Part shown: positions 29,299 through 55,599 of the stretch, piece by piece
How positions within the stretch are numbered: the first letter of the stretch is position 1
Layout: each line of letters starts with the position of its first letter
NCBI RefSeq assembly: GCF_020921035.1
Contig: NC_063150.1
Coordinates: 8,556,001 to 8,620,000, forward strand
DNA length: 64,000 nt
From: Rhodamnia argentea
Taxonomy: Eukaryota > Streptophyta > Magnoliopsida > Myrtales > Myrtaceae
Direction of reading: 5' to 3'
Position numbers and translations under genes: made by a program
The notes under the pieces: model-generated
Database searches by the model: none
What the model saw: the letters and a program-made list of their open reading frames with translations, nothing else
Told to the model about the DNA's origin: nothing

Positions 29299-29299
29299 C

Positions 29300-29751
29300 T
29301 GGGAAAGGTACAAGAACACAAAAAAAAAGTAAAAAGAAGCAAAAGAGGAGGTCAAAAACGAGAAACCAGAAATCGTAAAGCAAGATGCCTCCTGAATACT
29401 TCGTGTGAAGATTGCTCTCGGAGTCACAGCCTATCATCAGGCATCTCGATCGAAACTCGTTCCCCGTCAAACAATTCCAATTCAAGACGCAAAACCAGTA
29501 TTTTGACCTAGCAACGACGCACAAAACTAGTCTAGTCGGGGCGAAGATTCTCCCTTTTTTCCCTTGAGAGTTACCCTAGAAAGCATTTCCTATCAAAATA
29601 TACCCAGAATCACATGCCCAGAGGGATTTGTTGCCGTACCGAGAGAGGCGGGACTGGGATTGCCGCTGCGGGGGGCGAGCGAGGAAGGTATGCGGCCGCG
29701 GGAGCGAGCGAGCGAGGAAGGCTGGGCAGCGGCGGCGGAGCTGTACGAGCG

Positions 29752-29790
<39 letters not shown>

Positions 29791-29870
29791 GGAGAGGTAG
29801 GCTGAGCGCCGAGATTACAAGAAAGGGAGAGATGATGCGGGGCGGTTAGGGTTCACTCTCCTTTCGGCAA
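29300..29870 (-). promoter_or_regulatory. SURF6 leader and promoter region with (GA)n tract
   Basis: A GC-rich island (29630-29750) and a (GA)n tract (29754-29789) lie upstream of the SURF6 coding exon. The region from about 29600 rightwards has a diverged second copy at about 45800-46050, where no SURF6 gene follows. Confidence 0.5.
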
Positions 29871-29993
29871 CAGCATCCACAATTTGTTAGACTTAATTTC
29901 CAGAAAAAAAAAATCATAAAATTTTATATCATGCCTCAATTTTCCCCAAACTTCTTCTTCAAATAAAAAAAATTTACAATTTTTGTACAAAGT

Positions 29994-30045
29994 GAAAATT
30001 AAAGATTTGTTTGGACCAAAAAAAAAAAGAAAATTAAAGATTTGT
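29994..30045 (+). mobile_element. Tail-only retro-insertion with 17-bp target duplication
   Basis: An 18-base insert TTGGACC followed by eleven A residues (30011-30028) is flanked by the perfect 17-bp direct repeat GAAAATTAAAGATTTGT (29994-30010 and 30029-30045). This is the expected footprint of a retrotransposition event that copied almost nothing but the 3' tail. Confidence 0.65.
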
Positions 30046-30439
30046 CACTAGATAAAAAGAAATTCGAAATAAAATTGAGACTGAATCTTAGGTTTTCTTA
30101 GAGAATTTAGCCAAGGTTTCTTATTTATTTGGTTGGCATCAAGTCGTCAGCTTGCAAGAGGCCAGTCCGTTTCATGAGTTTAAGACTATATTCTTTCATG
30201 CTGTCTAAATGTTGATGTCAACATGAATTTTCTCGAGAAAAATAACATGTGAATTATTGTAACGGAGTAAATATATGTCTTGTAACCTTATTGTCCCATA
30301 AAAAAGAAAGCAGGAGACATAAAATTTTTAAGAGTTGTTAATGTAATACGAAAGCTTTTCTCCACCTGTGGAAGCATCTGACTTTCGCGTCATCGACTTG
30401 CTATGTGAGAAGCGAGTCAATTATTTGTGTAGGAATCTT

Positions 30440-30680
30440 ATTCGTGACCAAAAATAAATGATTTGAAAATATTTTTGAAAAACAATCGCTCGTATCGCTT
30501 AAAAGGATGAATGCACAAAAAAATATTGTCATTGTGAACGAAATTTTTTACACATAAATTATCGTCAATAATTAAAAAAAAATTCATTACTTAATTATTT
30601 TAACTTTTTAAGTGATCCAAGCGATAATTTTAAGAAAGCATTGTTTAAATTATTCATTTTTCACGAAACAAAAAATAAAA
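30440..30680. mobile_element. Small palindromic MITE, family Y copy 2
   Basis: Inverted ends CAATCGCTCGTATCGCTTAAAA (about 30483-30503) and, reverse-complemented, TTATCGCTTGGATCACTTAAAA (about 30603-30625) match those of the copy at 115-285. AT-rich, noncoding. Confidence 0.5.
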
Positions 30681-31338
30681 AAATAATAATAATAAAAACC
30701 TCGAAGTAAGACGTTTTTATTTTCTCTCCTAATCTTCTCCATGTGCGGACTCTCTATTTATGGAAATTCTCCATATAGTTTAATGGAATATTAAGGGAAA
30801 AGTGGTAAATTCAAATCGGTTGATGCCATATATGGAAAGCACCTTCCACACATACTCGTCCGCGTATTTAAAGTATGAACCAAATAATTTCTCTTTTTTG
30901 GGTCAAAAATCAAATAAATTTTCGTTCAGCAGCAAATAAACCTGACCAAAAAAAAAAAAAAAAACATCACGAGTTTTAATTTACTATTGGCGGTTCTTTG
31001 AGACACAAATTATTATTATTATTTTTTTGGCTATTGGTGTTTTTACGATGGTCACAATTTAGAGTTTTTGGTGGTATTTTGCCCATAGCGATATGCCAAG
31101 CATGCCTTCAATTATTTCATTTCTATCGAAACTTTCGATTAATTTTCATCAAATGCTTTCTCTCGAAAACACTGAAAATTGAAAATAGAAAATTATTCTC
31201 TCAAACCAAACTGGCTCTCAAATGTTCTCAATTCCTTAAGACTGAGCCATATTCCTCGCCCATAACGGAATTCATGCTAAGAAACTATTGTGAGGTTGTA
31301 CGTGCACCAACTTATGTGGTGCCAGGTGGGCTTGGTAA

Positions 31339-31919
31339 GGGGAAAATTGTAAAAAAATAAATAAATAAACATTTTTGCAATTTTACCAATTCGGTTATAA
31401 ACCTTTTAAGTTTGCCGATTTAGTTCTAAATCTTTTCATATTTTGCTCATTCAGTCCTATTGATTGAAAATCATTGACATGAACACCGACAATCGTATAT
31501 GGTATTGCAGATGCCGACGTTGATAATTATTGACAATATTTTAATATTTTTTTGCACTTTTTTATTTTTCCTCTTTTTTCCTTTTTATCTTTTCCTTTTT
31601 CCCTCTAGCCATCACCCTTAACCTTTGCCTCTGCCCTCATTGCCGGCAGGATGGTCGAAAGGAAAAAGGAAAAGAAAAAAAAGGAAAAAAGAAAAAAGAA
31701 AAAAATAAAATTTTAAAAAATTAATATTTTATTAAAAATTAGCCACTTCGGCGCCGGCGGTACCATATAAGACCGCCGCCATCCATGTCATCGATTTCCG
31801 ACCAATAGGGCTGAATTGGCAAAATGTGAAAAGATTTAGAGCTGAATCGACAAGCTTACAAAGTTTAAGATTGAATTGGCAAAAATACAAAGATTTAAGG
31901 CTATTTTATGATTTTCCCC
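31339..31919. mobile_element. Family X long-inverted-repeat transposon, in copy A
   Basis: Ends read GGGGAAAATTGT on the left and ATTTTCCCC on the right, with arms of about 110 bases built of 'AATTCGGTTATAAACCTTTT / TTTAGTTCTAAATC' steps and their complement. The centre is GC-richer. Flanking 8-mers CTTGGTAA (31331-31338) and TTTGGTAA (31920-31927) are the target duplication with one change. The same insertion exists in copy B (48238-48667), so it predates the duplication. No transposase; 8-bp duplications suggest a hAT-type element. Confidence 0.75.
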
Positions 31920-32465
31920 TTTGGTAACACATGTTTGAAAACTACGGTATTGTGAAGGTGGGGCTGCCTTTTAGAGTTATAGTGGGGTATCATAATTGGA
32001 TGGGGGCTTGCTAGAAAAAAAATATACGTAAAAACTTTTGAATTGAACATATATAAAACATAAGAAATGCTTTCCTGATAGTATTGTAAAATCCATATGT
32101 CATCATTGCGTGTTTTGCATAAAGTACTTATTGATTGGGAGATCGTGTGATTATAAATAACTGACAGTACTGTCAGATTATTAGGCTAACAATTCTCATA
32201 AAACATTCATGGACACACGAATCTCTTTTTGATAAACAAAAAGGAATTTTCCTTGATGTTCCTTGATGTTTAGCGATAGACTCACTTGTGAAGGCTCTAA
32301 GCGAGATGGGCCTCGAAGTGGGTAGACTAGTAAAGATGACGAATATTGAAGAGCCCGGCCCGAATTAGGTTCGCCATGAATTTCCTCATCGCTCTTGCAT
32401 TGATCCTCTCCTCCATTTTCCTCCCTTCAAATGTTTCTCCCCTAATATTTGATCTGGGTCAGCTC

Positions 32466-33178
32466 TTATATAACCTCCAAAGCAGCATGATAGGCTATCA
32501 GCAGTGGAAGAGATGCCAACGTGCTAAACGCCACCCTGCAATCATAGACAAGTGCAGATGCCTTCCTCAGACCAGTGAAAGTCAGATCTTGGCGAACATC
32601 ATGAATGGAACTAATTTAAAGGAATTCAGAAAACTTACGCGGTGCTAAGGATGCTCGCATGTAAACCATACTCTTTTGCGAAGATGAAAGTCGTGATCGA
32701 CTGAGGCAGAGCCGCCTGTAGAACGGGGAAAGGCCAAATCGCTCTTCTGGATCCATAGAAGTTAAATACAACTGACAGAAGCAGAGCTGCATAGTTTTGG
32801 AAGTTCCTATCACTAGGCTGGCTTAAGCAATGCTAGCTTCCGTTGGCGGGGTTAAACATCATCCCGTGGTCGAATATAGGCGATGGACTTTAGTTTCGCT
32901 ACCTGTATTATGGCGATCCTGAGAACATCGCCGTGCAGCCCCATGACAAGGGAGCTCACCGTCATTAGAGCCGGCCCAGCGATGAACCTCAATACCATTC
33001 CCAGAATTGTCATCTTGATGCCACAAGCTGTCACCTTTTTCTGCATCGTGATGAATATACCTGCGCATACATCAGATGACAGCAAATGTGAAATCCTACT
33101 ATTGTAAATGGATTTCACTTTAGCTCTTTACTTACCAATGTTGAACACAGTAGTTCCTACCCCCGCTCTTGATAGGAT
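32466..33178 (-). pseudogene. Truncated PIN5-like gene, 3' half only
   Basis: This is the copy-A counterpart of the intact gene at 49317-50851. Exon 5 (32535-32466), exon 4 (32715-32639) and exon 3 (33060-32903) are complete, with the same lengths (70, 77, 158 bases) and the same splice sites as the intact gene, and their reading frames are open. Exon 2 is present only as its last part (about 33178-33136). Exon 1, which encodes the first five helices and the loop, is absent. Similarity stops near 33178, and an LTR-element fossil follows a few hundred bases on. Without exon 1 it cannot make a PIN carrier. It is therefore a partial gene copy rather than a gene decayed by point changes. Confidence 0.85.
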
Positions 33179-33576
33179 ATGTATGGATCCGTAAATGAGT
33201 AAGAGAAAGCTTAATTACCGACTTGCACTCTAATATATCCGAACAGGAAATTGACAATTACTATTGTAAGCATGAATATTATTGAGATTATTGTGATCAG
33301 AAGCAACAGTGGCAAAGAAAAAATTTAAACCGTTTAAGCCAGTCAACCAATTTCCCTTGAAAAATGAGAGGTGCAAAAAGGACAGGCGCTACCCCCCAAA
33401 AATGATGTCACTATCTTCCTCTCTTTTACCAAAAATGACGGCACCGTCTTCCTCTCATTTCCCCAAACTTTATGAAAAAGCAAATTAATGAAAAATAAAG
33501 TATATCTCATTATTTTTTAGTAGATCTTCAACCCGCAAAGAAAATGAATTTTTTTTTACAGTTGGGTATAGTTATT

Positions 33577-36500
33577 ATTGACACCAAAAATCGGCTTGGG
33601 CCTTAGTTAGTCATAGAGACCACGGGAGTCACAAAGCCCACAAAGATATGCGCGTTGACAGCCGAGACATGGCAAACCGACTCTCTGTTAAGAAGGAACG
33701 TTGGGCAAACAGAAGCTCGGTTCAAGGGAAACGTCGGTGACACGGTTATGTCCGTATGTGGCGTTGACGGTTATGTGGAGTAGTTAGATACACGTTTAGA
33801 CCACCCTAAAGATAAGGAGGGCAGTTACCAAGGCGGATCTAAAAGTTTTAGGATAATGCGCACGTGAAGAAATTGCTTGAGATGGTTCTATTTTGTACTC
33901 ACCTATAAATAGTCGGAGATGGCTTTTTGTAAAAGACCTCAATTAATCAATCAACAACCTATCTTCTACTCTACAATTTATCTTATCAAGCATTTATCTT
34001 TCCTGCACTTTACTCATCGCACTGTTCATTATTTTTTGTCATTTACTTACTTCCCGTTCGAAATCGCTACAAGGGCATGTTTAAAACAATAAATCTGAAA
34101 GCTCTATACTTGTCGATAAAAGATCTTTCATTGCAGACGGTTCTAGCGAAATATCTTTTTTGCACTCTTGGTGGGACCATTTGTGGTTCAATTTGAGGAC
34201 TAGGAATCAAGATGGCGTCATTGGTGAGTCATTCTCCTCAGCGGTCGTCGAATGATGGCGAGAAAAATGTCAATGCAACTCTCAATGGAGTTCCAGGTGA
34301 TACACCCAGAGACCTTACTGATGAGCAAAGGAAGGAGTTGGCACCGGATGCTGTTACGGTGGCCACCATGAAAAGGGTGTTCGAGGAAAATCACAATGAG
34401 TTTGCCAACCATGTGGAGAATCGTCTTACCGATGTCCTTAAGCCTATGACTATCGATATGGTGACAAATTTGATGACTAAACCCAGTTCATCCAATCAAC
34501 CACCATTTGGCCAAGGAGCAAGCTTGCTCATGGATGGAGCGCTGACAAATCCTTTGGTCCCCAATGGAAGCGAAGGATTGACATAGGTCGTTCCTTCTAT
34601 AGTGGTGAGAATACTATAAAGAGATGATACCACTAATCACCAGAATCAGAATGGGGTTGGAGTTGGTAGTTTCAATAACCCAATTAATGTAAGGGGATTT
34701 CCACCAATTGTTAAGGATGGGAACGTTGCAGGGTTAAATTGGACATCGAATACGGTTGAAAATCCAATAATTAATGTGTTACCCAATTCGTGTGACAATG
34801 TTAGGCCACTCGGTAATGTCGGATATCCACCGGTAGAAGTGGTCAAACCACCGAACCCGATAAACGTCGGTTTGGGTATGCCTCCTAACCCTGACCAGTT
34901 TGTTTCGCATCTGTTGTACCCAGAGAATAACCTGGTGCGACCTTCGTATCCACCTAGCGGGCAAGGAGGAAACGTGGTTCAAGCGGTTGACCCTCTAAGA
35001 GACCAGCACATCGCTGAAAATGCTGCAGGCATAGTGATACAACGCATGGATACTGAAGGAGGGATGGTACCAAGGCTAATTTACCAAAAGTCATATCCTG
35101 ACTGGGTGGATAATGTAGCATTTCCACGGAGATATAAGATACCCAAATTTGCGGTGTTCACTGGTGAAGATGATCATTCTATCGTGGAACAGATAAGTAA
35201 GTTCACATCACAATGTGGTGACGCAAACGACTGGCACCCTATGCTGAGGTTGTTTTCGTTGTCTTTATCAAAAGTGGCTTTCACTTGGTACACAAGTTTG
35301 GCACCGAATTCTATATAGAATTGGGAAAACATGGAGAACAGGTTCCATACCTAGTTTTACCGGATGGTACCAGAGGTAACGCTATATGAATTGGCAAATA
35401 CAAGACAATACAGCAGTGAGTCTGTAGAGCAACACATAGAGCGGTTTAAAAGATTGAGAAACCGATGTATGTTTATTCTACCCAAAAAAGAAGTAACCGA
35501 CATGGCCAAAGCCGGTTTGAAGTTTAATCTTAGGGAGCGCCTTGAAGGCCAAAAATTCATAGATATATTTTCAATAATTGCTGTTGCAGTTAGGTTTGAG
35601 AATCTGTGGAAAGAAAAAGATAAGAAATACTACAAGGATTATAAACAAAACTTGGTTTCGGTAGACCAAGACATAGCGTGGTTTAAAAGATTGAGAAACC
35701 GATGTATGTTTATTCTACCCAAAAAAGAAGTAACCGACATGGCCACAGCCGGTTTGAAGTTTAATCTTAGGGAGCGCCTTGAAGGCCAAAAATTCATAGA
35801 TATATTTTCAATAATTGCTGTTGCAGTTAGGTTTGAGAATCTGTGGAAAGAAAAAGACAAGAAATACTACAAGGATTATAAACAAAACTTGGTTTCGGTA
35901 GACCAAGACAAGAATTCTAACGAGAATTTGGATCAGGATGAACCGATTGAGATTCTTGTGGCTAGGATGGTATTGGACAAGCTATATGTGTGTCGTGCTT
36001 TGAAACCAGCTAGGGTGAAAGAGTCGATCCTGGCAAGAACAAAAGAAGTCCAACATTATTCATTTGATGTGATGAAGTTGGATGACATCTTTGATCTTCT
36101 CTTGCAAGATGGTCTGATGAAGTTAACCGTAGGCTGGAAGATACCTAGTAAGGAAGAGTTAGCCGACAAAAGGTATTGTAAATGGTACCATTCTTGGAAT
36201 CACAGTACTATCTATTGTATTGTCTTCAGGCGAATTGTTCAGGAGGCAATATGCCAGGGAAAGATTAAGTTTGTTGAGGAACATGATAAGAAGATGGAAA
36301 TAGAAGGGAACCCTTTTGCTATGATGACCGGAATGATGCCGGCATCTTTTAGTGGAGGTTAACCCCCACCAGTGATGTTGTGTTAGAGGTGTCAACAAGA
36401 AATGAGTCATGACTACTCAAAAAGATATGGGAGGCGAAAGCCAAGGTATAAATGGCAGCAAAGCCATGGGAATCAGGAGATGAAAACCCATATAGGGAAC

Positions 36501-37956
36501 GTATTCATATCATCAAAATCATTACATACCGCTTTATTGAGGTGAAAATGCTAAGATGTTGGGTCCACAAAATAATGCGCATATTGTGCAACCTCCTATT
36601 AAGAAACCCCCATCCCAAGCTTCTCAGTCGAATGGGTTTGGTGACCAGTCGGAAGGGTAAAAAAAAGTGGCTGAGAAGTCATTCCGGTAGCATTATTTGG
36701 AGGGTGAGCATGAGATTACTACTTTGGACGTGCCAAGTGGGAAGATGGATCTCTACGTCCGCTAGTTGAAATCACCAAGTTTTGGAATTAGCATGAAAGA
36801 TGTTGTCTTGATAGGACAAGGTCTAGAACTCGAGGACGATGATTTTCCTCCATTACCAAAAAAGAAAGTTAAGCAAAAGCCTACGTTGAAGGTTCCACGT
36901 GATCCTCCCGTAGGACAATGGTTCTCCTTACAAGAGCAATAGGAGAGTCCAGGACAACCCAGCAGTTAGAATTTGGAGGGTATGTCTAGAACTAAGAGGC
37001 GTCGAATTCAAAGAAAGAAGAAGATCCAGGAGTTACAACTCTCATTGGAACGATTGAGTCGACAATAAAAAGGACCAGTTGTGAAGAAAGCCAAACCGAA
37101 GAGTTGGTTTTTGGAAAAGAGAGAAAAACGAGGGGGCAGGTGTCACGAGCCATCCTCGATCCATTGCTTTGATACCAATTTGCAACGGCCGCTCCTTAAC
37201 CCATGCATTGATTACATTCTGTTTTAATCTTTTATTACGTATAAGAGGGTGCACGCGGAAAATTAGACGAAAGTACAAGTGCATGTAAAACACATAGGTA
37301 GGCATGATGCCTAAGGAGTGTGGTTATAATAGTAGGGTTTCCTAAACCTAAATAAAACACGTGATTTTCAAGCAATAGAATTGGAAAAGAAAAGAAAATT
37401 GAGTTTATATAAATACACATATATCTTTTAGTAGGTTCATTACAAAAGTTCAAATATACATAAAGGGATTTACAAAGGAAAAACTACTCCAGAGTACTTT
37501 GGCACCATCTCCTTGTTCCGAATTTAGGTCGTCTGCTCCATCGCTACCTATATCCGGCTTCCTAGAAAAGAGGGCAACATCTACGGAATGAGCTGAAGCT
37601 TAGCAAGTAATGCATCTAACGTAATGACTAAACTATATATTCATTCATTTGGTTAAGCAGATTTTAATGGGCAACCAAGCAACGAAACACCAAAGAAGAC
37701 TTTCACAATACACCTACGTAGAGAGAAGTTGCAAAACAATTGTGGGTCTGTCCGATAAAACATTTCCAAAGAAAACGTAAAACTTCATCCCACTGCCGAA
37801 AGCATAAGGCTTTCCCTCCCTCCCATCAAACACAGAACTTTATCGCTTTTTGGCGTTTACTTATTTCCTGTTCGGAATCGCTACAATGGCCCTTTTGAAA
37901 CAATAAATCCGAAAGCTCTATGCTTGTCGATAAAAGATCTTTCGTCGTGGAAATTT
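33577..37956 (+). mobile_element. LTR retrotransposon fossil with gag only (Ty3/gypsy-like, TR-GAG-like)
   Basis: Parts: a left LTR of about 0.5 kb (33577 to about 34130, beginning TGACACCAAAAATCGG and containing a CTATAAATAG promoter near 33900); a gag-like coding region (34212-36362) of the plant Ty3/gypsy type; a purine-rich tract near 37118-37140; and a right LTR remnant (about 37855-37956) that matches the left LTR's end (34042-34130). No protease, reverse transcriptase, RNase H or integrase region was recognised. It therefore resembles the non-autonomous gag-only group called TR-GAG. Inside gag a 237-bp unit is present twice in direct order (35443-35679 and 35680-35910). Between the purine tract and the right LTR remnant lies about 0.7 kb of unrelated sequence. 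The element is broken, with several breaks, and old. It is absent from copy B. Confidence 0.75.
37141..37855. other. Unclassified sequence inside the LTR-element fossil
   Basis: It begins TGTCACGAGCCATCC immediately after the purine tract and contains no recognised gene. It may be another LTR or a later insertion; boundaries are approximate. Confidence 0.3.
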
Positions 37957-37999
37957 TTTTTTTTTTTTTGGTAAGGTAAGTATGTCGTCGTGGAAATTT
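37942..37999 (-). mobile_element. Tail-only retro-insertion with 15-bp target duplication
   Basis: A 28-base insert (poly-T then GGTAAGGTAAGTATG) is flanked by the 15-bp direct repeat TCGTCGTGGAAATTT at 37942-37956 and 37985-37999. On the minus strand it is a short unique piece followed by poly-A, the layout of a severely 5'-truncated retro-insertion. Confidence 0.55.
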
Positions 38000-38568
38000 T
38001 CGGTGAAACAGTTATTATAAATTACTTCCATCTATTTTGTGGTATACCACCTTCGTTAAGAGTAAAGTGAGTCCATCTATCTGTAAAATTGATTTGTTAA
38101 TAGTAAACTTTACTTGTTCGTGGTAAATCTTCACATTTTTTAGTAAGTAAACTGATAAACCCGTGATAAATTTATTCCGAACTAATTATTTGACTACCAA
38201 AAACACTAAACTGGCACATCTATGACAAATTTATCCTCCATTAGCTTCCATTATCATGAAAAACACCCAAATCTATATATTTATGGCAAACAAAGAATAA
38301 AAACTCCGAACTAATACAACTGTCAACTGCCACGTGTTATTTAACTCAGCAATTTAACGGCCAAAAGGGTAAATTTATTACATGTGTATCAATTTGAAGT
38401 TTTTCGTGATATTAACCCTCTTATCTATTACATAATTGTAATGACGCTATTTTCTTATTAAAAAATTAGAGAGAGATGGCTTGGAAGTGGCTCCATTGCT
38501 TTGAAAAAGGGTTGCGTGATCCTTGCTAGCCACCGTCAATTGTGTTAATGAACCCTTATTGTATACAA

Positions 38569-39549
38569 ATGAAAAACTTATCCAAAAAATCATTAATCTA
38601 TTATACTTTTGTCAATTAAGTCCTAAACCTTTTAATCATGCTAATAGAGTCATAAACCTTTTCATATTTTGCCAATTAAGTCAAACTAGCCAATTTTGGC
38701 TAGAAATTGCTAAAGTTGACGATGACCATCCTACGTGGCATGACAAGCACCGATGTAGATAATTTTAATATTTTTTAGATTATTAATTAATTTATTTATC
38801 TTTACTATTCTTTTCTTCGGTTTTTTACAACTATGGTCAGCCACAAGCGAGGGCCATGAGTAGAGGTGGCCAAATGGACCCGTGGGCCCGTGGGCTCGGA
38901 ACCGGCCCGTTGACCGGGCCCACGGTTCCAACCTGGAACCAGACCGGCCCTCAAGGGCCGGTTCCGGTTTGTAAATTGTTGGAACCGGCCCGGAATCGGC
39001 AGATTCGAACCGGTTCCAACCCGGTTTTATAAAAAAAAAAAAAGGAAGTAAGTTGGGTGAAAAGAGCAATTGGGCTTTGGAACCGGCGGTTCCAAACCCG
39101 GAACCGGAACCGGCTATTCAAGGGCCGGTTCCGGTTCCACCTTTTTTTGGAATCGGAACTGCCGGTTTTCGAACCGGAACCGGCCACCATTAGCCGTGAG
39201 CCCCTCGTCGGCCAACAAGTAAGGTGTCGGCCCATGCCTAGATGCGGGCGAGGGCTCGACGTCCTCACTTGTGGACGACGATGGTTGGCCGGCAACCTTG
39301 CCAGCTAGAGTTGTTAAAAAACTAAGAAAATAAAATCAAAAATAAAAATATTAAAAAATTATTAAAATTATTTACGTCAGCGCTGGCCGTGCTATATAAG
39401 ATAGCCATCGTATACGTTGGTCAAAATTGGCTGCATGGACTCAATTGGAAAAACGTGAAAAAATTTAGGACTCAATTGGCACAATTAAAAGATTTATGAT
39501 TGATTTGACGAAAGCACAATAAGTTAGGGCTTTTTAGACAATTTTTCCG
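38569..39549. mobile_element. Family X long-inverted-repeat transposon, larger copy in copy A
   Basis: Arms (about 38572-38700 and 39425-39548) are inverted repeats of the family X type (TTAAGTCCTAAACCTTTT steps). The interior contains an internal block rich in CCGGTTCC/GGAACCGG units (38880-39190), which also makes it fold. The corresponding element in copy B is at about 51540-52215. No transposase was seen. Confidence 0.65.
38876..39190. repeat. Array of GGAACCGG/CCGGTTCC units
   Basis: Short complementary units of the GGTTCCAACCCGG / GGAACCGGAACCGG type occur many times in both directions. Related but shorter arrays appear at about 41635-42060 and 53270-53760 in both duplicate copies. The units are self-complementary, so the transcript or single strand could fold. 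Confidence 0.6.
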
Positions 39550-39789
39550 AAACATTTCACCACAGATGCGAATCATTTATTTTATAGCATATGGATTTAC
39601 TATGTAGCTTTTGCTAAGAATAGTGAGAAACTTGATTAGCAAATAAATAAAAAATTGGACGGTCAAGATTGATCTCAATGTTTTTTAAAGGCTGGAGATC
39701 TAACCCTGTAATTCGGTGAGTCGATTATGAAAATCCCCGGGCACAGGAGAACGTGATGAATAGCCGTTTTGGGGAATACTATACTATAA

Positions 39790-43125: not shown

Positions 43126-44222
43126 CCGCACACATAGGTATAAGTCTTTCTCGAATTCAGAAAATTCGCAAGGGCAAAAATCGTGGTTGCTAACGTCTAA
43201 TCGTGCTTTCAATCGGTTCGCGACGATATGAATTGATGATTTTCAAACAAGAAGATGTCTCTTCATCCCAATTTCTCTGCGTCGAGAAATTATGTCCAAG
43301 TTGACATGAAATAGCTTTGGCCTATTGGGGAAAGGGCAGCAGCGTAAACAAACTGCTCAAAGCTCAAGAGAATCTGCGGCAGCAACTTAAAATCTTATGC
43401 GAACAAATTACAGAAGTTAATTATCAGGAATGAAATTCTCAAGTCGTATTAACCTATATTGGAAGTTGATTTAAAAGAAATGTAGAAAACGACCTTTCAA
43501 CTCAATGTAGGTAAGATGGAAATGTCTTCTTAGAATGAGTTTCAATGCTATTTCGACGTTCCAAGAGTATAAGGTATAATGTCGATTTTTATTTGGCACA
43601 ACCTCTTCGGGCGACAAAAGGACATTAACATTGTCGCAATTTCGTACGATGCTGATTTTGGCGATATAACTTTTCAATTTACCACTAAGCGCCCTAACTT
43701 AAAAAAAAAAAAAAAAAAGGTTCACTCAAATGACGTTGGTGATTTTCCTGACAGAAGATCCGATGTCACATTAAACTAATTTAAAAACGTCTGGTATGGC
43801 TTCTCAGCGAAATGACATAATTAAAAGCGCATGAACAAAGACATTTGAACCATTTCCTCCAAAATTGACAATGTGGGGCTAAATTAGGTCTCAATCGAAA
43901 ACCCTAACCCCATTTTTGCAAATAAAAAAAATTGCAAGTCATTAACTGGTGACGTCATGGGCAAAAGAAAAACGTAGAATACTAGAGAATTGAAAGAAAA
44001 AAAAGAGACCCCGGGCTTAACGTCACTTCGGACTTCTCTCTCTTGAGAAAGAAAAAAAGACATTTGAATATGTTCCTACTAAAATAGATTCACGCGGGAA
44101 TCGTCGGAGTTATGTTGCTGGAGTTGCGCAAGAGAAACACTTTTCAATAGTTTTTGGCACCTAAGCTATTGAACTAGAACTTATGACGTCATAATTAGCG
44201 CCGTACGAAAGAGCTAACATAT

Positions 44223-45498
44223 TGGGTTTTTTTTCCAATTTAATTTTTTTTTTAAATATTTTTTAAAAATAAATATTTACAGATTTGGGCATCGCTCGGC
44301 GGTTGGGTCGCCGAGCGAGGGCCGCTCGGCAGCCCAATTGCCGAGCGGCCCACTTGCTCGGCAGAGGTTGTCCCCCCCTTTTTTTAATTTCCTTTTTTTA
44401 AGTGTTTTAATTATTTATATTTATAACATTTAGTTTATTTCATATTTTTTTAACATGTTTACATTTATTTTATTTATAATTTTTTTCTTGTGAAGCTTAT
44501 CTTTATAACATAATTAGTAATAATTAATATAAAAATTATTAAGATCTATAATTAATAACTAATGTTATAATTATGTAATTAATTAAAAATTCACAAAATA
44601 AAATTGGTAAGATATATGAAATTAAGAAACCCCATTCTCAATTCAATATCTTTATAACATAATTAATCGAAAACCCATCCGGACGATCACGAATCACAAA
44701 AATCATCATTAATAAATTCCGAAAATACTAATAAAAATAGGAAAACCCATGTAGACGATCCCGAATCGCAAAAATCCATCGTTCGTCACCGCCAACGGCG
44801 GTGCATATTGATTAGGTCGCCGTTTCGTTTTAAGAGATCAAATTTGAGCTTGATCCAATGTCGTCGACCTGATCCGCCGATTCTTAACACATCACTGTTT
44901 TGCCTTTCGATTGAATTTCTGTCTGTCCAATCCATCTAGAAATGCACTACTAATACATTCCGCATCACTCTGGCAAAACTACAAAAGCCGATAAAATTTG
45001 TTATTTATGAAATGTAGGGAAAAGGCCAAAAGAAGGGTTTTTTTTTCCAATTTAATTTTAAAAAAATATTTACGAAATGACATCTAGATCCTCATCCTCC
45101 TTAATTTCATATATCTTACCAATTTTTTTTTTGTGAATATTTTCAATTAGTTACATAATTACAACATTATTTATGAATTATAAATCTTAATAATTTTTAT
45201 ATTAATTATTACTAATTATGTTATAAAGATAAGCTTCACAAGAAAAAAATTATAAATAAAATAAATGTAAACATGTTAAAAAAATATGAAATAAACTAAA
45301 TATTATAAATATAAATAATTAAAACACTTTAAAAAAGGAAATTTTAAAAAATAAAAAATAAAAAAAGGGAGCCAACCTTGCTCGGCAGCCCAGGTGCCGA
45401 GCAAGTGGGCTGCCGAGCGAGGTCCAAATTTGTAAATATTTATTTTTAAAAAATATTTTTGTAAATATTTAAAAAGAAAATTAAATTGGAAAAAAACC
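44223..45498. mobile_element. Fold-back transposon with about 410-bp arms and 9-bp target duplication
   Basis: Left arm (44223 to about 44635) and right arm (about 45097-45498) are near-perfect inverted repeats: the AT-rich stretches and a GC-rich block of CTCGGC/GCCGAG units (44290-44365 and 45383-45420) recur in reverse complement. The 9-mer CTAACATAT flanks both ends (44214-44222 and 45499-45507). Nine-base duplications and GGGTTT ends fit a Mutator-like element. The roughly 460-bp spacer has no transposase. A second terminal-like motif (GGGTTTTTTTTTCCAATTTA) lies at about 45037-45056 inside it, hinting at a nested or rearranged origin. Copy B has no element at the matching position (after 55570). 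Confidence 0.85.
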
Positions 45499-45799
45499 CT
45501 AACATATCATCGGTCCTATGACGACCGTCACCGACCACCTAGCATTCAAGTTTCGTGAAATTGCTCACTCCTCCTTTCACGTCCTCTCCACCTTTATCTC
45601 GGTCACTCGTACTACTTGGGCCCAATACTTCCTCTTTCCTGCTAAAAAAATCACCTGCAAAATGCTCTAGCATTGACATAATCCTCTATTCCTCAATTCC
45701 TCACTCCTAGCTGACTAGCGATTTGCTCGAAACAGGTTACCAAACACCGTTATTCATGACAAACGTTATTACGTTGCTCAATTAGAATAAGAAAATCAA

Positions 45800-46250
45800 A
45801 GAACTAATCACGAGAAAGGGAGTTACGAATTGATAGAAGCGGGGACTAGGGTTGCTACAGCGGGGGGAGCACAAGGAGGCTCTGCAATGTCGGCGGGGAC
45901 CGGTTGCATGCTGCGAGCGAGAGGAAAGAGAGATACAAAGAGGGAGGCTAAGCACCAAGGTTAGAAGAAAGAGAAAGAAATGTTGGCTTAGGGTTTCCCT
46001 CTTTTCCGACACAGAAAGTCTCTTTGTTCGGCATCAGCACCCTACAGTTTCTTATTTATCTCGCGGGAAAAATGACATGTGAAAAAATTAAAAACGAAAT
46101 AAATATTCACACCAATATAAGTTTGTCAGATCAATAAAAAGAAGACATGAGACATACAATTTTTAAGGGCGATTGAATCGTCTTATAAGTACACAAAATA
46201 CTGAGGTCTGTAAAGCATCGACTTTTGTGGGGAAAATTACTAAAACAAAG
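45800..46250 (-). other. Relic of the SURF6 promoter/leader region
   Basis: The order of features matches 29600-30380: GGCGGGGACTAGGGTTG-type block, GAGCGAGAGG, GGAGGCTAAGCACCAAG, TTAGGGTTTCCCTC, then TTTCTTATTTAT and the GAGACATACAATTTTTAAG stretch. No SURF6 coding sequence lies to its left, so the promoter-like DNA is an orphan. Confidence 0.6.
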
Positions 46251-46725
46251 TCCTAACAATTATTATAGTCGTGTCAACTTAGAAGAGATTTTTTACCGGT
46301 TTCTATAATATAAAATGATATAAATACACATTATAGTTCTGGAAGTTCACTAATTAGGGTTTAGGCCCCGAGATTTGTTGCCAGTTTCTGCTGCTTTAAC
46401 TCAGTATTTGTCATCGTATCTTGGGATATCCCTGTCTCTCCGGGATGAGAGCTCAGACACGGTGTCCGTCCTAAGTTTTTTCCATTGAGCTTTATGTCGG
46501 CCCATGTCATGACATGGGCCATTTACCTCTAGCCAATGTCCTCTTGACACATGGCGAAACACGCGTAATTGCAACTAAAGAGCTACAGTAAAATTCTTTC
46601 TGATGACATGTGGAGTGAATAAACTTGTTCAGCAGCAAATGAAGCTGAAAAGGTCAACAAAAAAAAAAAAAAAAACAAGCTTTAACGAAAGTCCACATAA
46701 AAGTTCACGAGTTTTAATTTATTTC

Positions 46726-47917
46726 TTCATGTCGAAATATAAATATACAAATAATGCATAGATTGCATGAAATGACAATTAAGGAATACGACCCTAGAAA
46801 AAGAAATTTCACTGTTCCGAAATAAAAGAATTTGCAAAGACATCTTCTAGTTTAATTTTCTGTTAATGCGTCTTTTTTTTTTAAGTTTAGAATTTCAAGC
46901 AACATTTTGACATATTCATGGAATTTTCTGCACTAATTTTGAAAAAGAGAGAGAATAAACTCATATAAAAAGTAGATTTACCAGCCTATGCACGTACAGA
47001 ACGACAATACATGGGTAAATCAATAGTAGGGGCAAGTCAAGCTCTCATAATGTAATTTCTGCTTCTTTCCTTACATTAAAGAAACTGGTCAAAAGTCGAA
47101 AAACCATTTTTCAGTACAGACAATCTTTCGCAGGTTATACAATTTCGGGGATGGTATGAAACTGTTTGAGTGAAAATTACATTGCATTGAATAATATAGT
47201 GCTCTTTTTGTTGAGTGATAGAACTTCAAGTTTTCTCTGGCACCCTTTCTTGTAATATCACAATTAGAAAATAATAGATATCGATAAGGTTAATACCGTA
47301 AAAAAATCTTAAACTAAACTTTTGTGACACCGATACCCACGACATTTTTCTATCATGAAAATACTAAATTGCACCCACTGTGATATCAATACCTCAAACT
47401 TTTTTTTTATGCCACTAAAACAACCAAACTTGTAGCAGCATGAGAAAAGTATGCTCTACCTACGAAAAAAATCCAAAACTTTGCCAATTGTTATAGCACT
47501 ATCCAAAGTTTTTCTTTGTATCCTCAATATTCCTAAACTTCCTAAATTTATACCAGTGTGACAAAAATACTCTCTGTCCCAATTTCGTCCGATGCAACTG
47601 TTAAAAATCTGGCGGAAGGTTACTTTAGGTCACTTTACAAGTGTGGAAGCGGAATTGAGGCAAAATGTACTTTTCTTTTTGGTCTAAGCAAAAGGTACTT
47701 TCACTGGTACAAATTTGGGGCATTGGTGATGTGAACAAAAGGTTTGAAGGTCCCAGTGTGCAAAATTTAGGATTTTGATGATAGATTGAGAATATTTTAT
47801 CATACTGATATAAGTTTGGTATATTGACACTATATATATATAGGTCTCACAATAGACAAAATTTAGGACTTAGGATGGTCAACATAGGGTGCTTTTGTCG
47901 AACTAGTGCAAGTTTGG
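46726..47917. other. Insert present in copy B only, AT-rich, no gene
   Basis: Copy A passes directly from the TTTTAATTTA at about 30985 to the GGCGGTTCTTTGAGAC at 30987-31003, whereas copy B has 1.2 kb between the equivalents. The right half (47280-47900) is made of 'CTAAACTT / AAGTTTGG' steps in opposite directions, as in a decayed inverted-repeat transposon. Ends not resolved. Confidence 0.4.
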
Positions 47918-48237
47918 CGGTTCTTTGAGACAAAATTCTTTTGGCTATTGGTGTTACAATTGCCATAATTTGGATTTTTTTGGTGATATTTGTCCAAAGC
48001 AACATACCAAGCATGCCTTCAATTATTTCATTTCTATCAGAACTTTCAATTAATTTTGATCGAACACTTTTTCGAAAAAATTGAAAAATGAAAATAGGAA
48101 ATTACTTTTCACAAACCAAATTGGCTCTCCAATGTTCTCAATTCGTTCAGACCGAACCATATCCGTTTCCCATAACGGAATTCATGCTAAGAAACTATTG
48201 TGAGGTTGTACTAGGTGTGTTTGGTAACGGGAAAATT

Positions 48238-48667
48238 GTCAAAAAATTCCTAAACATTTTGTACTTTTGCCAATTTAATCATAAACCTTTTAAGTTTGCG
48301 GAATCAATTCTAAAATTTTTCATTTTTTGCCAATTAAGTCCTATTAGCAAGAAATCGTTGACAGTAGACGCTGGATGTCTTACGTAGTATCACCGGCACC
48401 GACGTGAATAATTATTAATAATATTTTAATATTTTTTGGATTTTTTATTTTTATTGTTTTATTTTCTTTTTTTCCTCTGGCCATCACCCTCAACCTTCGT
48501 AGGCGTTGAGGAAGAAAAATAAAAAAATTAAAAGAAAACTATTATTAAAAATTGTTCACGTTAGCAATTTCCGGCCAATAGGACTAAGTTTGTAAAAGGT
48601 GAAAATGTTTAGGATTGAATGGACAAAAATGTAAAAAAGTTTAGGGCCTTTTTTGACAAATTTTCCG
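48238..48667. mobile_element. Family X transposon in copy B, perfect 8-bp target duplication
   Basis: Ends are CGGGAAAATTGTC on the left and GACAAATTTTCCG on the right, 430 bases overall. The 8-mer TTTGGTAA flanks it exactly (48230-48237 and 48668-48675). Arms share the family's 'TTTAATCATAAACCTTTTAA / AATTAAGTCCTATTAG' steps. Same insertion site as 31339-31919 in copy A. Confidence 0.8.
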
Positions 48668-49316
48668 TTTGGTAACACGTGTTTGAAAACTACAGTATCG
48701 GGAAGGTAGGTGGAGCTTCTTTTTAGAGTTTTTGTGGGGTATCATAATTGGATGGGAGCTTGCTGGAAAAAAATATACATAAGAACTTTTGATTTGATCT
48801 TGTATGAAACATTCATGGATACACTAATCTCTTTTCATAAACAAAAAGGAATTTTTTTTCCTTGATGTTTGGTTATTAGCTTAGTGATTAGTAAAGATGG
48901 CGAATATTGAAGAGCCCGGCCCCAATTAGGCTAGCCTGACCCTCATTACATCTCTAGAACATAAACATTGTACAAACCTAGAGTGGTTTTTGCAAATATT
49001 CCTGATCAAAAGCATTGAAAGAGTGCCTTCTCATGCCCGAAATTGGCGAGATGAAAGTACGGACGTCACCACGCATTTGACATTGATTAAGTTTGCGATT
49101 GAACCCCACTTTTGAAATTTCTTTTTCTATTGCGATTTCTGTACATGAACTCAGGGAATTTTTCGCCATAGGAATCACGACTAAGGAAATTCCCGACGTT
49201 ACAGAATTTATGAGTTGGTCGCCATGGATTTCCTCATCGCTCTTGCATTTGATCCTCTCCTCCGTTTTCCTCCCCTCAAATGTTTCTCCCCCTAATCTTT
49301 GGATCTGGTTCAGCTC

Positions 49317-50851
49317 TTATATAACCTCTAAAGCAGCATAGTAGGCTATCAGCAGCGGAAGGGATGCCAATGTGCCAAACACCACCCTGCAATCATAGAC
49401 AAGTGCAGATGCTTCTTCAGACCAGTGAAAGTCAGGTCTTGGCGAACATCATGAATGGAACTAGTTTGAAGTAATTCAGACCACTTACGCAGTGCTAAGA
49501 ACGCTCGCATGTAAGCCGTACTCTTTTGCGAAGATGAAAGTCGTGATCGCCTGAGGCAGCGCCGCCTGCAGAACGGGGAAAGGGCAAATTGATCTTCTGG
49601 ATCCATAGAAGTTAACCACAAGTGACAGAAACTTAAGCAGTACTAGTTTACGTTGGCGGGTTTGCAATATGAGCTATCGATTGCTCGAGTTTATAAACTG
49701 GAATGAAATTTGATAGCATCTTGTGGTCGAATATTGGCAATGGACTTTAGTTTTGTTACCTGTATGATAGCGATCCTGAGAACATCGCCACGCAGCCCCA
49801 TGACAAGGGAGCTCACGGTCATTAGAGCTGGCCCAGCGACGAACCTCAAGACCATTCCCAGAATTGTCATCTTCATGCCACAAGCTATCACCTTTCTCTG
49901 CATTGCGATGAATATACCTGCACATATATCAGATGATAGCAAATATGAAATCCTACTCTTGTCAATGGAGTTCATATTAACTCTTTACTTACCAATGTTG
50001 AACATAGCAGTTCCTAACCCAGCTCTTGATAGAATCTCTATCGATTCTTTGACGATGCCTGGCAATTTCACTTTGAACCTTACAAAAGAAATAGTTATGT
50101 GAGTCGACGGATGTTCAGCGACAATCTGACATTGCTCGGCTAAAGCAAAAGGTGTCTCTCGAATTGCAAACCTGTGCGCTATTACCGCCCAAGCGACGCC
50201 CACAACACAAGCGTAGATGTTGGGATTCAAAGCCAGTTTCAGACCCACAATTTTCATGGTGGTGCACAATCTTGGCCTTGTGTTATTGGTCTCCAGAGCC
50301 TCGGTCGTTCCCTCAATATCTTTGTCGGTCGGCGCCGGATCATCAGTCGTCGCTCTCCTTGGAGAGATGTCCATCCCCATTTTCCGACACTCGAGAAAAC
50401 ACAACAGAAGCGGAAACCACAGGATGGCCTGCACAACCGATAATTGAACCACAAGATCCACGCCCACCTGACCGTACATCGATCTCAGTATCGGTATCCC
50501 GACGACCAGGAGATTGGTCAAGGTGAGCAAGGAAAAGGTGGTGATGCACCAGCTATGGTCCACTCTGCTGCTGCATTTGGCGCATAGGACGAGCATCAGG
50601 ACGGCAAGGAACTTCGAGATGGCATCTGCCGCCAAGATGGAGTAATTCATCTTGAAGAGATTGGCGTGCGCAGCAGTGAACTCGAAGCCGAACAGAGGGA
50701 TGATGAAGTAGCAGACCATGCGGTTTATGCCGTCGCACTGCTCGGCTGTGAACATGCGCCACCACCTCACTGATCCGTACCCGAGCATCAGGGCGAAGTA
50801 CAGGGGCACCATGGCCGCGAACACCTTGTATATATCTTCCAATTCGATCAT
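49317..50851 (-). CDS. PIN5: Short PIN auxin carrier, PIN5-like, five exons
   Basis: Short PINs (PIN5, PIN8) lie mainly in the ER membrane and move auxin between cytosol and ER lumen, tuning auxin levels. Exons: 50851-50172, 50078-49993, 49917-49760, 49565-49489, 49386-49317; 1071 bases, 356 residues, close to Arabidopsis PIN5 (351). The N-terminal bundle begins MIELEDIYKVFAAMVPLYFA with YGSVRWWRMFTAEQCDGINR. The central hydrophilic loop is short (about residues 150-195, with two Asp/Glu/Thr clusters), the mark of the ER-type PINs. The C-terminal half has LALNPNIYACVVG, LSRAGLGTAMFNIG, KVIACGMKMTILGM and AALPQAITTFIFAKEYGLH. Splice phases (2, 1, 0, 2) match the PIN family pattern. Intron 1 is 93 bases, in frame and stop-free, so a 387-residue product is possible if it is kept. 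Intact; its partner in copy A is truncated. Confidence 0.93.
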
Positions 50852-50937
50852 GGTTCTTCTGTATAGAGAACTTAGCTGATAATTCTAGCAGCTAATTTGG
50901 ACTCACATCTGGGGTGCTCAGTTTAGTTTTGCAAGAC

Positions 50938-50945
50938 TATTTATA
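50938..50945 (-). promoter_or_regulatory. TATA box of the PIN5-like gene
   Basis: The minus strand reads CCTATAAATAGTC here, about 90 bases upstream of the ATG, giving a leader of about 60 bases. Copy A has lost this promoter along with exon 1. Confidence 0.6.
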
Positions 50946-51539
50946 GGAAGAGGGGGGCTTCTATGGCAATCGGTGAGGTGACTTCACCAGCACACTGCAC
51001 CACAACGTGAGGTCTTTCAACTGGTCAAAAGTCTCGAACTTGTTCATTTACAACAAATTTACTTCAAACTAATATTTTAACCATAAAAACCTTCAAAATG
51101 GTGCACCCACAACAAATTTACCTTCAGTTAACTTCTATTAAATTTGTTTAATACCACAAAAAACCCCAAACTAATACACTTACGATATACGGAGGGTAAA
51201 AACCCCAAACTAGTACATCCGTCAACTACCACGTGTCATCAAACTTAGCAATTTGATTGTAAAATTTAACAAAAGCTAACGGCGGGTAAATTTATCACAT
51301 GTGTAGCATTTTGAGATTTTGATAGTCAAAAAATTAATTTGGGGTAAATTTATCACATGTGTAACGTGTTTTAAAGTTTTTGCAGTATTAACCGTCTTTT
51401 CTATAACATAATTGCAATTGGGCTATTTTTTATTTGGAGAGAGAGAGAGAGGAGTGGCTCTATCGCTCTGGCAGGGACTGCGCTCTCCTGGCCGGCCACC
51501 ATCAAGGATGTTAATGAAACCCTATCGTATGGTAAGTGG

Positions 51540-52215
51540 GAAATTTTTTCAAAAATTGTAAATTTATTATACTTTTGTTAATTCAGCCCAAAATCTTTTA
51601 ATTATTCTAATTAAGTCCTAAACATTTTCACATTTTGTCAATTGAGTCTATCAAATTAATTTTGGCCAAAAAACGCTGACATGGACGCCAACTATCTTAC
51701 GTAGCATGACCGGTACTGATGTATATAATTTCAATAAATATTTGCAAATTTTTCTTGAATATATTTATTTATCTATTTATTTTTTTCTTCTTACAACTGT
51801 GGCCGGCTAGGGGTGAGGGTTATCCGGGCGAGGGACATGATGCCCTCGCCGGCCAACGAGTGAGGGTGGCGGCCCTCGCCCGGATCCGGGCAAGGGCCCG
51901 ATGCCATCACTCGAGGATGGTGACAGTTGGCCAGCAACTTCATCAGCCGGAATTGTTTAAAAAAAAAGAATATAGAAAAAAAGAAAATAAAAAGTCAAAC
52001 AAATATTAAAATATTAAATATAATTAAATTTTTTATATCAGCGTTAGTCGTGCCACGTAGGATCACCAATGTTAATGTCGGTCAAAATTAGACAAATGTA
52101 TTCAATTGGAAAAATGTGAAAATATCTAGGACTCAATTGACACAATTAAAATGTTTATGATTGAATTTGTAAAAGTGCAATAAGTTAAGACTTTTTGGAT
52201 AAGTTTCTGGAATAT
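51540..52215. mobile_element. Family X transposon, partner of 38569-39549
   Basis: Arms (about 51545-51655 and 52085-52205) are inverted repeats of the family type; the core (51800-51950) is GC-rich with CCCTCGCCGGCCAACG. It lacks the long GGAACCGG array of its copy-A partner, so the two have diverged since the duplication. Confidence 0.65.
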
Positions 52216-52309
52216 TTTACCACAAATACGAATCATTTATCTAATGGGAGACGTATTTACAAAGTAGCTTTTGATAAAAATAGTGGGAAACTTGATTAGC
52301 AAATTAAAA

Positions 52310-52987
52310 GGGCAAAAGTACAGCAGGAGTGCCAATATTTATGTATGTCATTCACTTTGGTGTCAATTTTTTTTTAGATCACTTAAGTGCCAAATCGGAG
52401 AAAAAACGATTACTAAAATGCCAATTTCGGCCAAAAATGATTATTTAAGTGCTAATTCCGACCAAACAGTTTACATGGCGTTTTTTTATTAATTTTTTAA
52501 TACCACGTGTCAATTTTTTTTTAACAAAATCAACCCATGTGGCGTCCACGTGTACTGTTCAACTTAAAAATAGTTAATTTATTTAAAAAATTAAAATTAA
52601 ACAAAAAAATAGCCTAAAAAAAAAAAGGAAGCATGAGTTTGCAGAGACGAGGGCCGTGAGACCTCGCCGCGGCCACCCTCACCTGGTAATGGTCGACAAG
52701 GGGTGGGGTCAACTATCGCCCACCCCTAGCTGCTGCAAATGACCTCTTTATTTTTTTTATATTATTTTTTTAATGTTTTTAACTTTTGGTTTTTTTTTTT
52801 TAGTTTCGACTTGGAAGTTCCGGTGAGCACGTGGATGCCATGTAGGATTTCCGGTAAAGCTCACCAGAGTTGGCACTAAAATAACAGTTTTTCAAAAAAA
52901 TTGACACTTACGTGATTAAAAAAAAAAATACTGGCACTAAAGTGATCGTCGTACACAAATATTGACACTCTCGTTGTACTTTTGCCG
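52310..52987. mobile_element. Family W inverted-repeat transposon with perfect 8-bp target duplication
   Basis: Ends: GGGCAAAAGTACAGCAGGAG on the left; the right end reverse-complements to CGGCAAAAGTACAACGAGAG. Arms of about 120 bases, GC-rich core at 52640-52740 (GAGGGCCGTGAGACCTCGCC). The 8-mer AATTAAAA flanks it at 52302-52309 and 52988-52995. Copy A (about 39640-39660) shows the uninterrupted site, so this insertion followed the duplication. Layout suggests a hAT-type non-autonomous element. Confidence 0.85.
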
Positions 52988-54198
52988 AATTAAAAGTAAA
53001 AAACTGTACGGTCAAGACTGATCTCATTTTTTTTTTGAAGGCTCGAGATCTAACCCTATGATTAGGTAAGTACATTATGAAAATCCCCGATATGGGAGAA
53101 CGTGATGAAGAGCCATTTTAGGGTATACTTCTTGGTGCTGGATTGGATGCTATGTTCATCGAATTGTTCCTTTTGTATGTGCATCGAGTTCTCCGGTTTC
53201 ATTCCCTCCCAACGATAGAAAATGGTGCTTTTGATTTGCCTTCTCATGATGGAGCGATCAAATCAAGAACCGTCCGGACAAGACCAAATCGACCGATTGG
53301 GTCTGATTCTTAGGGGCTTCGGTTTGGTTCCCGATTTCATAAAATTGGAACCGTTTACGGTCGATCCGTTCCCGGTTCCAGAGGGGAACGGGACTGCCTA
53401 GGCCCGACCGACTAATGTGTTTTTTTTTAAAATAAAATTTTCTAAATATAAACCTAAATCTAAACTTAAGATGTTTAGTATGAATTTCAGGTTTAGTGAT
53501 AACCTGATGCAATTAACGAGAGGTGATCCGCTGAATATGTCATTAATGAGAAAAATTTATTGACAAATCACCAAAAAAAAAAAAATGCAATCAATCCAAA
53601 GATTGGACCGCTCGGGATCCGAACCGGTGTGAACCCAAGACCATCCTGTCCGGTTTGCGGCGCTTGAAACTGGAAATCGAGAATCGAGAATCGATCACTC
53701 CTATTATAGTTTCTTCGCGCCCAATCTGGAACGGGATAAATTACTGAATCCGTTCTATCTTATTCTCGTGAATTCGGTTCGCGACACGCGAAATGGCTGG
53801 TCATTAATGTGTAGGGGCCTTAGAGGGAGGTCGGAATCTCGCCCCAAAATGTCCATTGTGTGCTTCCTAATGATTCAACCTCAGCATTATTCTTTGTTGG
53901 AGAATGATTCGACCTTAATGGCGGGCATAGAAAAAGTAGATGAACTTTGCATTTGTATCAAATTCCGTCGTGTCTGTTTTGCGCATTAATGAATAATAAT
54001 ATATTGCTTTCATCGAAAGTCTACGGTGAATAGATCGCCACTTGGCCGTAGGATCGATAAGCTCATAAATCGATTACGTCTTTGATTCAGAACGCTATGA
54101 CATCCTCGTTTTAACGTTGTTTTCCTTTTACCGGTCAAGTTTACATGCTTTGTTTACATTTTTATTGGCATTCTTATTCATATTTACTGTACGCACAC

Positions 54199-54691
54199 AG
54201 AGGGAAAATTTTCCAAGGAGTCCCAAACCTATTGTACGACGGGCAATTCAATTCTAAATCTTTCAATTATGCTAATTTAATCCTAAATCTATCACATGTG
54301 ACAAATTAATTTTAAACTTTTTAACCATGGTCAATCTAGTTATAAACCTTTCTCGCAAGCTCAGGTGTAGGCGCCTCTCGCCCGAGGCGGGCGATGAATT
54401 GCAGAGGTAAAGAAAGAAAAGAAAAAGCAAAAAAGAAAAGGAAAGAAAAGAAAAAGGGAATTAAAAAAGTACAAAAATTATTCATATCGGTGCCAACTGT
54501 CTTGACTAGATCGCTACGTCAGTAATTTTTTGCCAAAATTGACTGAAAGGACTAAATTGGCAAATCGTTAAAATGTTTAGGACTAAATTACAAATTATTA
54601 AAATGTTTTGAACTAAACAGGCACAATTGATAGGTTTAGGGCTCAATTGTCCACATGTGCAACACGTTTATGACTTTTTGAATAATTTCCT
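54199..54691. mobile_element. Family X transposon, partner of 42477-43125
   Basis: Ends AGAGGGAAAATTTTCC and (right) AATAATTTCCT, arms of family type, core with GCCTCTCGCCCGAGGCGGGC. Flanks ACGCACAC (54191-54198) and CCGCACAC (54692-54699) are an 8-bp duplication with one change. Confidence 0.7.
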
Positions 54692-55599
54692 CCGCACACG
54701 TAAGTATATGTCTTATTGGAATCCAAAAAATTCGTAAGGGCATACATCGTGGTTGCTAACGTCTAATCGTGCTTTCAATCGATTCGCGATGATATGAATT
54801 GGCGATTTTCAAACAGGAAGATGTCTCTTCATCCCAATTTCTCTGCATCGAGAAGTTATGTCCAAGTTGACATGAAATAGCTTTGGCCTATGGGGGAAAA
54901 GGGTAGAAGCGTCAGCAAACTGCTCAAAGCTCAAGAGAATCTACGGCAGCAATTTGAATTCTTATGCGAACAAATTACGGAAGTTAATTATCAGGAAAGA
55001 AATTCTCAAGTTGTATTAACCTATACAGTAAGTTGATGTAAAAAAAAAAATGTACAAAACGACCTTTCAACTCAATGTAATTAAGATGAAAATATCTTCT
55101 CAGAATGACTTTCAATGCTACTTCGACGTTTTAAGAATACGAGGTCTCACGTCGATTTTAATTTGGCACAACCTCTTCGGGTGGCAAAAGGACTTAACAG
55201 TGTCGTAATTTTCATATGACACTGATTTTGGCGATATAACTTTTCAATTAACCACTTAAGCGTCCTAACTTAAAAAAAAAAAAAAAAAGGTTCGCTCGAA
55301 TGATGCTAGTGACGTCATGGGCGAAAGAAAAACATAGTGTAGTAGAGAATTGAAAAAAAAAAAAAAATTTGTCCTTCGGGACCATGATCCCGGGCTTAAC
55401 TCACTTCGGACTTCTCCCCTTCGAAAAGAAGACATTTGAATATGTTTCTACTAAAATAGATTCGCGAGGGATTCCTCGGAGTTATGTTGCTGGAGTTACT
55501 CAAGAGAAAAACTTTTCAACAATTTTTGGCACCTAAGTCATTGAACTAGAATTTATGATATCATAATTAACGCCGTACAAAAATTATGTCAAGAATTTA

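Follow-up and report, generated by a model that had tools for sequence, protein, structure and literature searches.

Is the resemblance between two neighbouring stretches of a Rhodamnia argentea (Myrtaceae) chromosome the mark of a single tandem duplication, and can the transposons common to both copies serve as a clock? The DNA in question (the window) comprises 64,000 nucleotides of contig NC_063150.1 (C1:8556001-8620000) and was compared with itself by BLAST, using chunked queries; the genome searched amounts to 346.7 Mb in 74 contigs, and all DNA comparisons are drawn from this one genome. A first-pass annotation had proposed one direct tandem segmental duplication that spans the SURF6 promoter, a PIN5 gene and at least three shared transposons. 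The locus holds two overlapping tandem segmental duplications; the one proposed is old, in direct orientation and later broken up by transposons, an ordinary event of a common kind. Very probably, a segment in which elements of a transposon family (X) and a Y-type repeat had already settled was copied in direct tandem, after which the PIN gene of copy A was truncated and further insertions followed, the second duplication overlapping the first in a segment termed block E. The two units of the first duplication are:

29608..44210, plus strand: unit A (collinear chain; left edge by local alignment)
45806..55582, plus strand: unit B (collinear chain; left edge by local alignment)

When 29300-44700 was compared with 45500-56000 on the plus strand (cut-off E ≤ 1e-3), 32 matches were found, 13 of which are taken in by one collinear chain (29768-44210 against 45915-55582) with a score of 3890.6. 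With B reverse-complemented the score was 469.9, while three other parts of the window reached at most 117.9, and no more than 547.7 was obtained from either strand of ten 10-kb genome stretches. With 13 blocks in one orientation and order, where at least six pairs had been claimed, and controls so far below, the direct tandem duplication is upheld with roughly its proposed ends. It is extremely improbable that the matches are dispersed repeats lying in similar order by chance, the finding that would have told against the earlier proposal: many of them do belong to the numerous family X, but three non-repeat stretches between the transposons (30987-31340, 39645-39780 and 42188-42478) each occur, by whole-genome search, at exactly two places, one in A and one in B, and the controls stay at or below 548 against 3,891 for the chain. 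A haplotype or assembly doublet was also considered and was rejected, the large blocks, diverged by at least 12%, appearing too far apart for it. An Rfam scan of 28000-58000 found no family at its gathering score.

The left edge of the duplication and the joint between the units involve three features:

28258..29307, minus strand: SURF6 coding frame (Pfam RRP14 and SURF6)
44223..45498, no strand: element with 0.4-kb terminal inverted repeats between units A and B, CTAACATAT on each side (read by eye)
45508..45805, no strand: junction DNA (single copy in the genome search)

Unit A starts about 0.3 kb upstream of the SURF6 frame. This edge, the 5' flank of SURF6, is the weakest part of the duplication, with 62.3% identity over 220 columns; its score was reached by none of 300 shuffles on each side of a GA repeat, so that the flank, earlier called the SURF6 promoter, can be placed in both units. 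The joint from the end of A to the start of B consists of the inserted element and 0.3 kb of unmatched DNA. Had a larger duplication included SURF6, and had the second SURF6 then been lost to leave its 5' flank at 45.8 kb, unit B would open with that flank, preceded by 0.3 kb of unexplained DNA, as it does; this course of events is improbable, however, as the junction DNA scores only 33 against 28900-29600, a value equalled by 15 of 300 shuffles, and the self-comparison showed no SURF6 remnant.

The repeats present in both units, none assigned a strand, are:

31340..31917: X1A, Mutator-like element (MULE-like)
48224..48670: X1B, at the same insertion point as X1A, with TTTGGTAAC on either flank
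38563..39549: X2A, interrupted at about 38854-39196 by an insert absent from B (chain, arm tree)
51527..52210: X2B (arm tree)
42478..42966: X3A, followed by an A-only stretch to 43106 (chain, arm tree)
54199..54692: X3B (arm tree)
41600..42090: repeat-like stretch of Y type in copy A (classed by eye)
53270..53783: its Y-type counterpart in copy B (likewise classed by eye)

One genome search for family X returned 1,715 first-look candidates, 40 of which were scored. The elements are near-palindromic (X1A is 71.8% self-complementary over 31371-31894), a structure that we take to be typical of the non-autonomous Mutator-like class, and family X fits a MULE-like assignment, the class being derived from structure alone. 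The likeness to Mutator-like elements extends to long terminal inverted repeats and, in some copies, to apparent target duplications of up to 9 bases. When the flanks of 27 elements were examined, both ends could be located in 16. In four of these 16 the flanks agree at 8 or all 9 of the 9 bases, against 7 of 240 mispaired flanks, and matches of length 7 and 8 are likewise enriched (9/16 and 7/16), the remaining 12 of the 16 being without such a 9-bp match; the target-site duplication is likely to be of 9 bases.

A tree was built of 54 arms, 14 of them from the locus and 40 from 20 copies fetched from the genome. It joins both arm pairs of X2 and both of X3 as sisters (support 90, 98, 100 and 100), and by whole-element score the X2 and X3 partners rank each other first. 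The X1 insertion point is common to A and B, with flanks of TTTGGTAAC twice in B and matching at 7 of 9 bases in A. The claim that X elements are shared at three loci is therefore sustained as to corresponding places at all three and as to sisterhood for X2 and X3; as the tree does not join X1A with X1B, X1 counts as shared by position alone. The simplest reading is that X1 inserted shortly before the duplication, the alternative being that one X1 copy was replaced through conversion.

Several observations weigh against the copying in tandem of a whole segment with its repeats already in place. The chain takes in about 39% of unit A and no more (some 5,689 of 14,603 bases, the remainder being insertion, deletion or decay), and Kimura two-parameter distances (K2P) between non-repeat A/B blocks are uneven, ranging from 0.10 to 0.53. 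Neither of the two X1A/X1B arm pairs is joined as sisters in the 54-arm tree, and by score X1B ranks 34th of 52 from X1A, X1A ranking 2nd of 52 from X1B. X2 is without a target duplication, 5 of 9 bases matching in both copies. Lastly, the 0.3-kb junction DNA gave no match beyond shuffles to either the SURF6 5' end or the flank that follows B, and because it matches neither side the joint cannot be read.

The PIN gene differs between the two copies:

49317..50851, minus strand: complete short PIN gene of copy B, five exons, 356 amino acids (gene model, Pfam)
32371..33188, minus strand: PIN fragment of copy A, exons 3-5 preceded by the end of exon 2 (chain, codon alignment)
33189..38160, right edge approximate, no strand: A-only stretch replacing B 50046-51054 (chain gap)
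33579..37957, ends approximate, plus strand: remains of a probable long terminal repeat (LTR) retroelement in copy A, with a 5' LTR-like start, coding region and 3' LTR tail

The four introns of the copy B gene are all GT-AG, and its product has a complete Mem_trans domain (Pfam PF03547, positions 2-343 of 343, E 1.9e-69), the halves of which are separated by a short central loop of about 45 residues. Short PIN auxin carriers are those of the PIN5/PIN8 type. By domain and loop length the predicted protein is a short PIN, sharing with these carriers the full domain and the loop of that size, but among the three solved PIN structures compared it scores PIN3 (304.5 bits) and PIN1 (301.5 bits) above the short-type PIN8 (263.4 bits). 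The exons left in copy A keep an open frame, with a stop identical in place to that of copy B. Over 111 codons the two copies give synonymous and nonsynonymous divergences of Ks 0.255±0.063 and Ka 0.058±0.016; the ratio of 0.23 therefore indicates that one or both copies were under selection during some of their history.

Copy A lacks at least 1 kb, including PIN exon 1, and in its place stand about 5 kb with the LTR retroelement; the corresponding DNA of B (50046-51054) holds exon 1, the first intron and the greater part of exon 2. Near the right edge of the A-only stretch there is a weak match (38168-38403 to 51055-51320), beyond which the chain resumes, 38367-44210 matching 51342-55582. Because the chain thus flanks the gap on both sides, the PIN gene was most likely whole at duplication and the 5' half of copy A was lost later. 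A break of the duplication within the gene would equally leave one copy partial, but the continuation of the chain past the gap on either side makes this very improbable. One whole and one partial PIN gene are present, as the first-pass annotation had it; the half gene was not made by the duplication. The locus is in this respect a worked example: a complete PIN gene adjoins a truncated copy, and the loss is traced to later replacement.

The first 0.4 kb or so of the A-only stretch has no match elsewhere among the scored candidates. For the LTR of the retroelement, 47 matches were listed, its own included, among the best 40 of 63 candidates, which were scored. The far end of the element keeps a 97-base LTR tail only, and the two 97-base tails differ by a K2P of 0.137±0.041. 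A scan of three open reading frames in it found no gag or pol family and one weak match to DUF1348. Within the coding region lies a 237-base tandem duplication, 97% alike, at 35421-35910.

Further PIN-type sequence was seen elsewhere on the contig. Another PIN-type gene (L016, C1:8550283-8552387, plus strand) lies some 3.6-5.7 kb ahead of the start of the window. Relatives at C1:11.18 and 11.25 Mb have the PIN 3' part and repeats in common with the window, but not the block order; pairs of places about 64 kb apart in this region (L018-L026, C1:11.17-11.26 Mb) match stretches of the window, a pattern pointing to a further tandem segmental duplication that includes PIN 3' fragments.

Insertions limited to one copy had also been claimed, and they are present. 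The chain comparison shows the retroelement and several smaller stretches in A only, and in B there is an element with a target duplication for which A retains the empty site, both read by eye:

52311..52987, no strand: element present in B only, with AATTAAAAG on each flank; A has the site once, near 39645 (by eye)

The locus allows repeats known to share an age to be compared side by side with non-repeat DNA of that age. Non-repeat A/B DNA has a K2P of 0.145±0.010 (1,897 columns) and the paired X elements one of 0.326±0.019 (1,390 columns), a 2.2-fold figure from which the PIN (K2P 0.172), Y (0.396) and pre-X2 (0.338) blocks and the three at the left edge (29600-30979) are omitted. When the left-edge and pre-X2 blocks are kept, the values are 0.333 for X against 0.195, or 1.7-fold. 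The excess is seen in transversions (0.096 per site in X pairs, 0.046 in non-repeat DNA) and in transitions outside CG and CHG contexts (0.130 against 0.057), and in label shuffling over 15 blocks the difference was reached in 6 of 10,000 trials. Because paired X elements have diverged more than non-repeat DNA, the relative clock proposed from transposon insertions is biased and would run fast by a factor of 1.7 to 2.2.

Mutation rate, conversion and constraint on the flanks are all candidate causes. We tentatively suggest, at somewhat less than even odds, that transposon relics copied in the same event may have diverged about twice as fast as the surrounding non-repeat DNA, through a higher mutation rate in repeats or conversion from other copies of the numerous family; the block would in that case act as an internal calibration, and transposon ages dated by divergence would be about twofold too high here. 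A study of Arabidopsis intergenic DNA reports that the presence of transposons gave no obvious rate classes and that the rate rises with GC (PMC1865379). Both points speak against a general cause, X copies here having 29-40% GC and the six flank stretches measured 36-41%. The excess divergence of the shared repeats is the part that may merit follow-up: should it recur at the genome's other duplications, ages taken from transposon divergence would need correction.

The right end of the duplication is formed by block E:

43107..44210, plus strand: block E, copy A (chain, genome search)
54673..55582, plus strand: block E, copy B, which from 54878 on doubles as the left part of the second duplication

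A genome search with 43107-43742 found matches at this locus only: A, B and a third copy (C), in two pieces about 5.4 kb past the end of the window. In window coordinates copy C occupies 69353-70019, where a repeat interrupts it, with an extra piece near 70.66-70.8 kb. It belongs to a second tandem duplication, in which 54878-68250 matches 69353-101359 (window coordinates) in 11 chained blocks; this lies mostly beyond the window and holds GT47, leucine-rich repeat (LRR) and response-regulator genes. The single duplication first described is thus real and incomplete as an account, the second extending to about 101.4 kb.

Over 376 columns of block E, distances are 0.127 for A-B, 0.194 for A-C and 0.188 for B-C, which places C outside A+B. 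The remainder of the second duplication has diverged no further than the first: beyond its main coding parts most windows give 0.11-0.17, with edges up to 0.31, against 0.145 for the first, and Ks values overlap, that of the last GT47 exon being 0.203±0.041 (219 codons) beside the value for PIN given above. The two duplications are likely to be of similar age, and either may be the earlier. Both might have arisen in one complex replication-based rearrangement, in keeping with an overlap confined to block E, equal A-C and B-C distances, similar background divergence and a partly inverted piece of an LRR gene at the second junction. This is unlikely, though not negligibly so: 995 of 1000 bootstraps make A and B the closest pair in block E, and in a 122-column piece C is still farther off (0.352 and 0.283 against 0.127). 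At the second junction (68278-69352, L012) half an X element lies beside the inverted LRR-gene piece.

Under the favoured account of two separate duplications, the X elements and the Y-type repeat would have settled in the segment first; collinearity, unique DNA found in A and B only and the sister X2 and X3 pairs argue for this, with X1 placed by its position. The segment that begins at the SURF6 5' flank, takes in the short PIN gene and ends with block E near 55.6 kb would then have been duplicated in direct tandem, probably by unequal exchange or by end joining with template switching, the junctions favouring neither. Copy A would next have lost the PIN 5' half, the 5 kb or so with the retroelement remains taking its place, while the PIN gene of copy B stayed complete. 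A, B and the junction would each have gained more insertions, whose presence in one copy is observed and whose order is presumed. The second tandem duplication, with block E as its only common ground with the first, would have copied the GT47, LRR and response-regulator genes.

Tandem gene arrays are reported to be numerous in eucalypts: a genome study gives 8,366 in Corymbia citriodora and 8,679 in Eucalyptus grandis, accounting for 23% and 24% of all genes (PMC8110574). Units A and B resemble such arrays in their direct orientation, in being neighbouring copies of a gene with its intergenic DNA, and in later decay and transposon insertion; they differ in that one gene copy was truncated through later replacement and in that two duplications overlap, in block E. 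A literature search of titles and the starts of abstracts found nothing on this locus, and no paper that joins Myrtaceae, tandem duplication, genome assembly and MULE.

Nearby genes include an LRR gene (61307-63568) and, from 58.9 to 60.1 kb, exons of GT47. Ahead of GT47 a repeat of some 224 bases has two copies in the window (56801-57189) and about eight in the partner (L012, 72137-73906). Directly behind the second GT47 gene lies a 15.4-kb LTR-like element (76592-91983 in window coordinates, L013-L014), the 0.94-kb direct end repeats of which are 96% alike (K2P 0.038), with GAAAC, read by eye, at either side.

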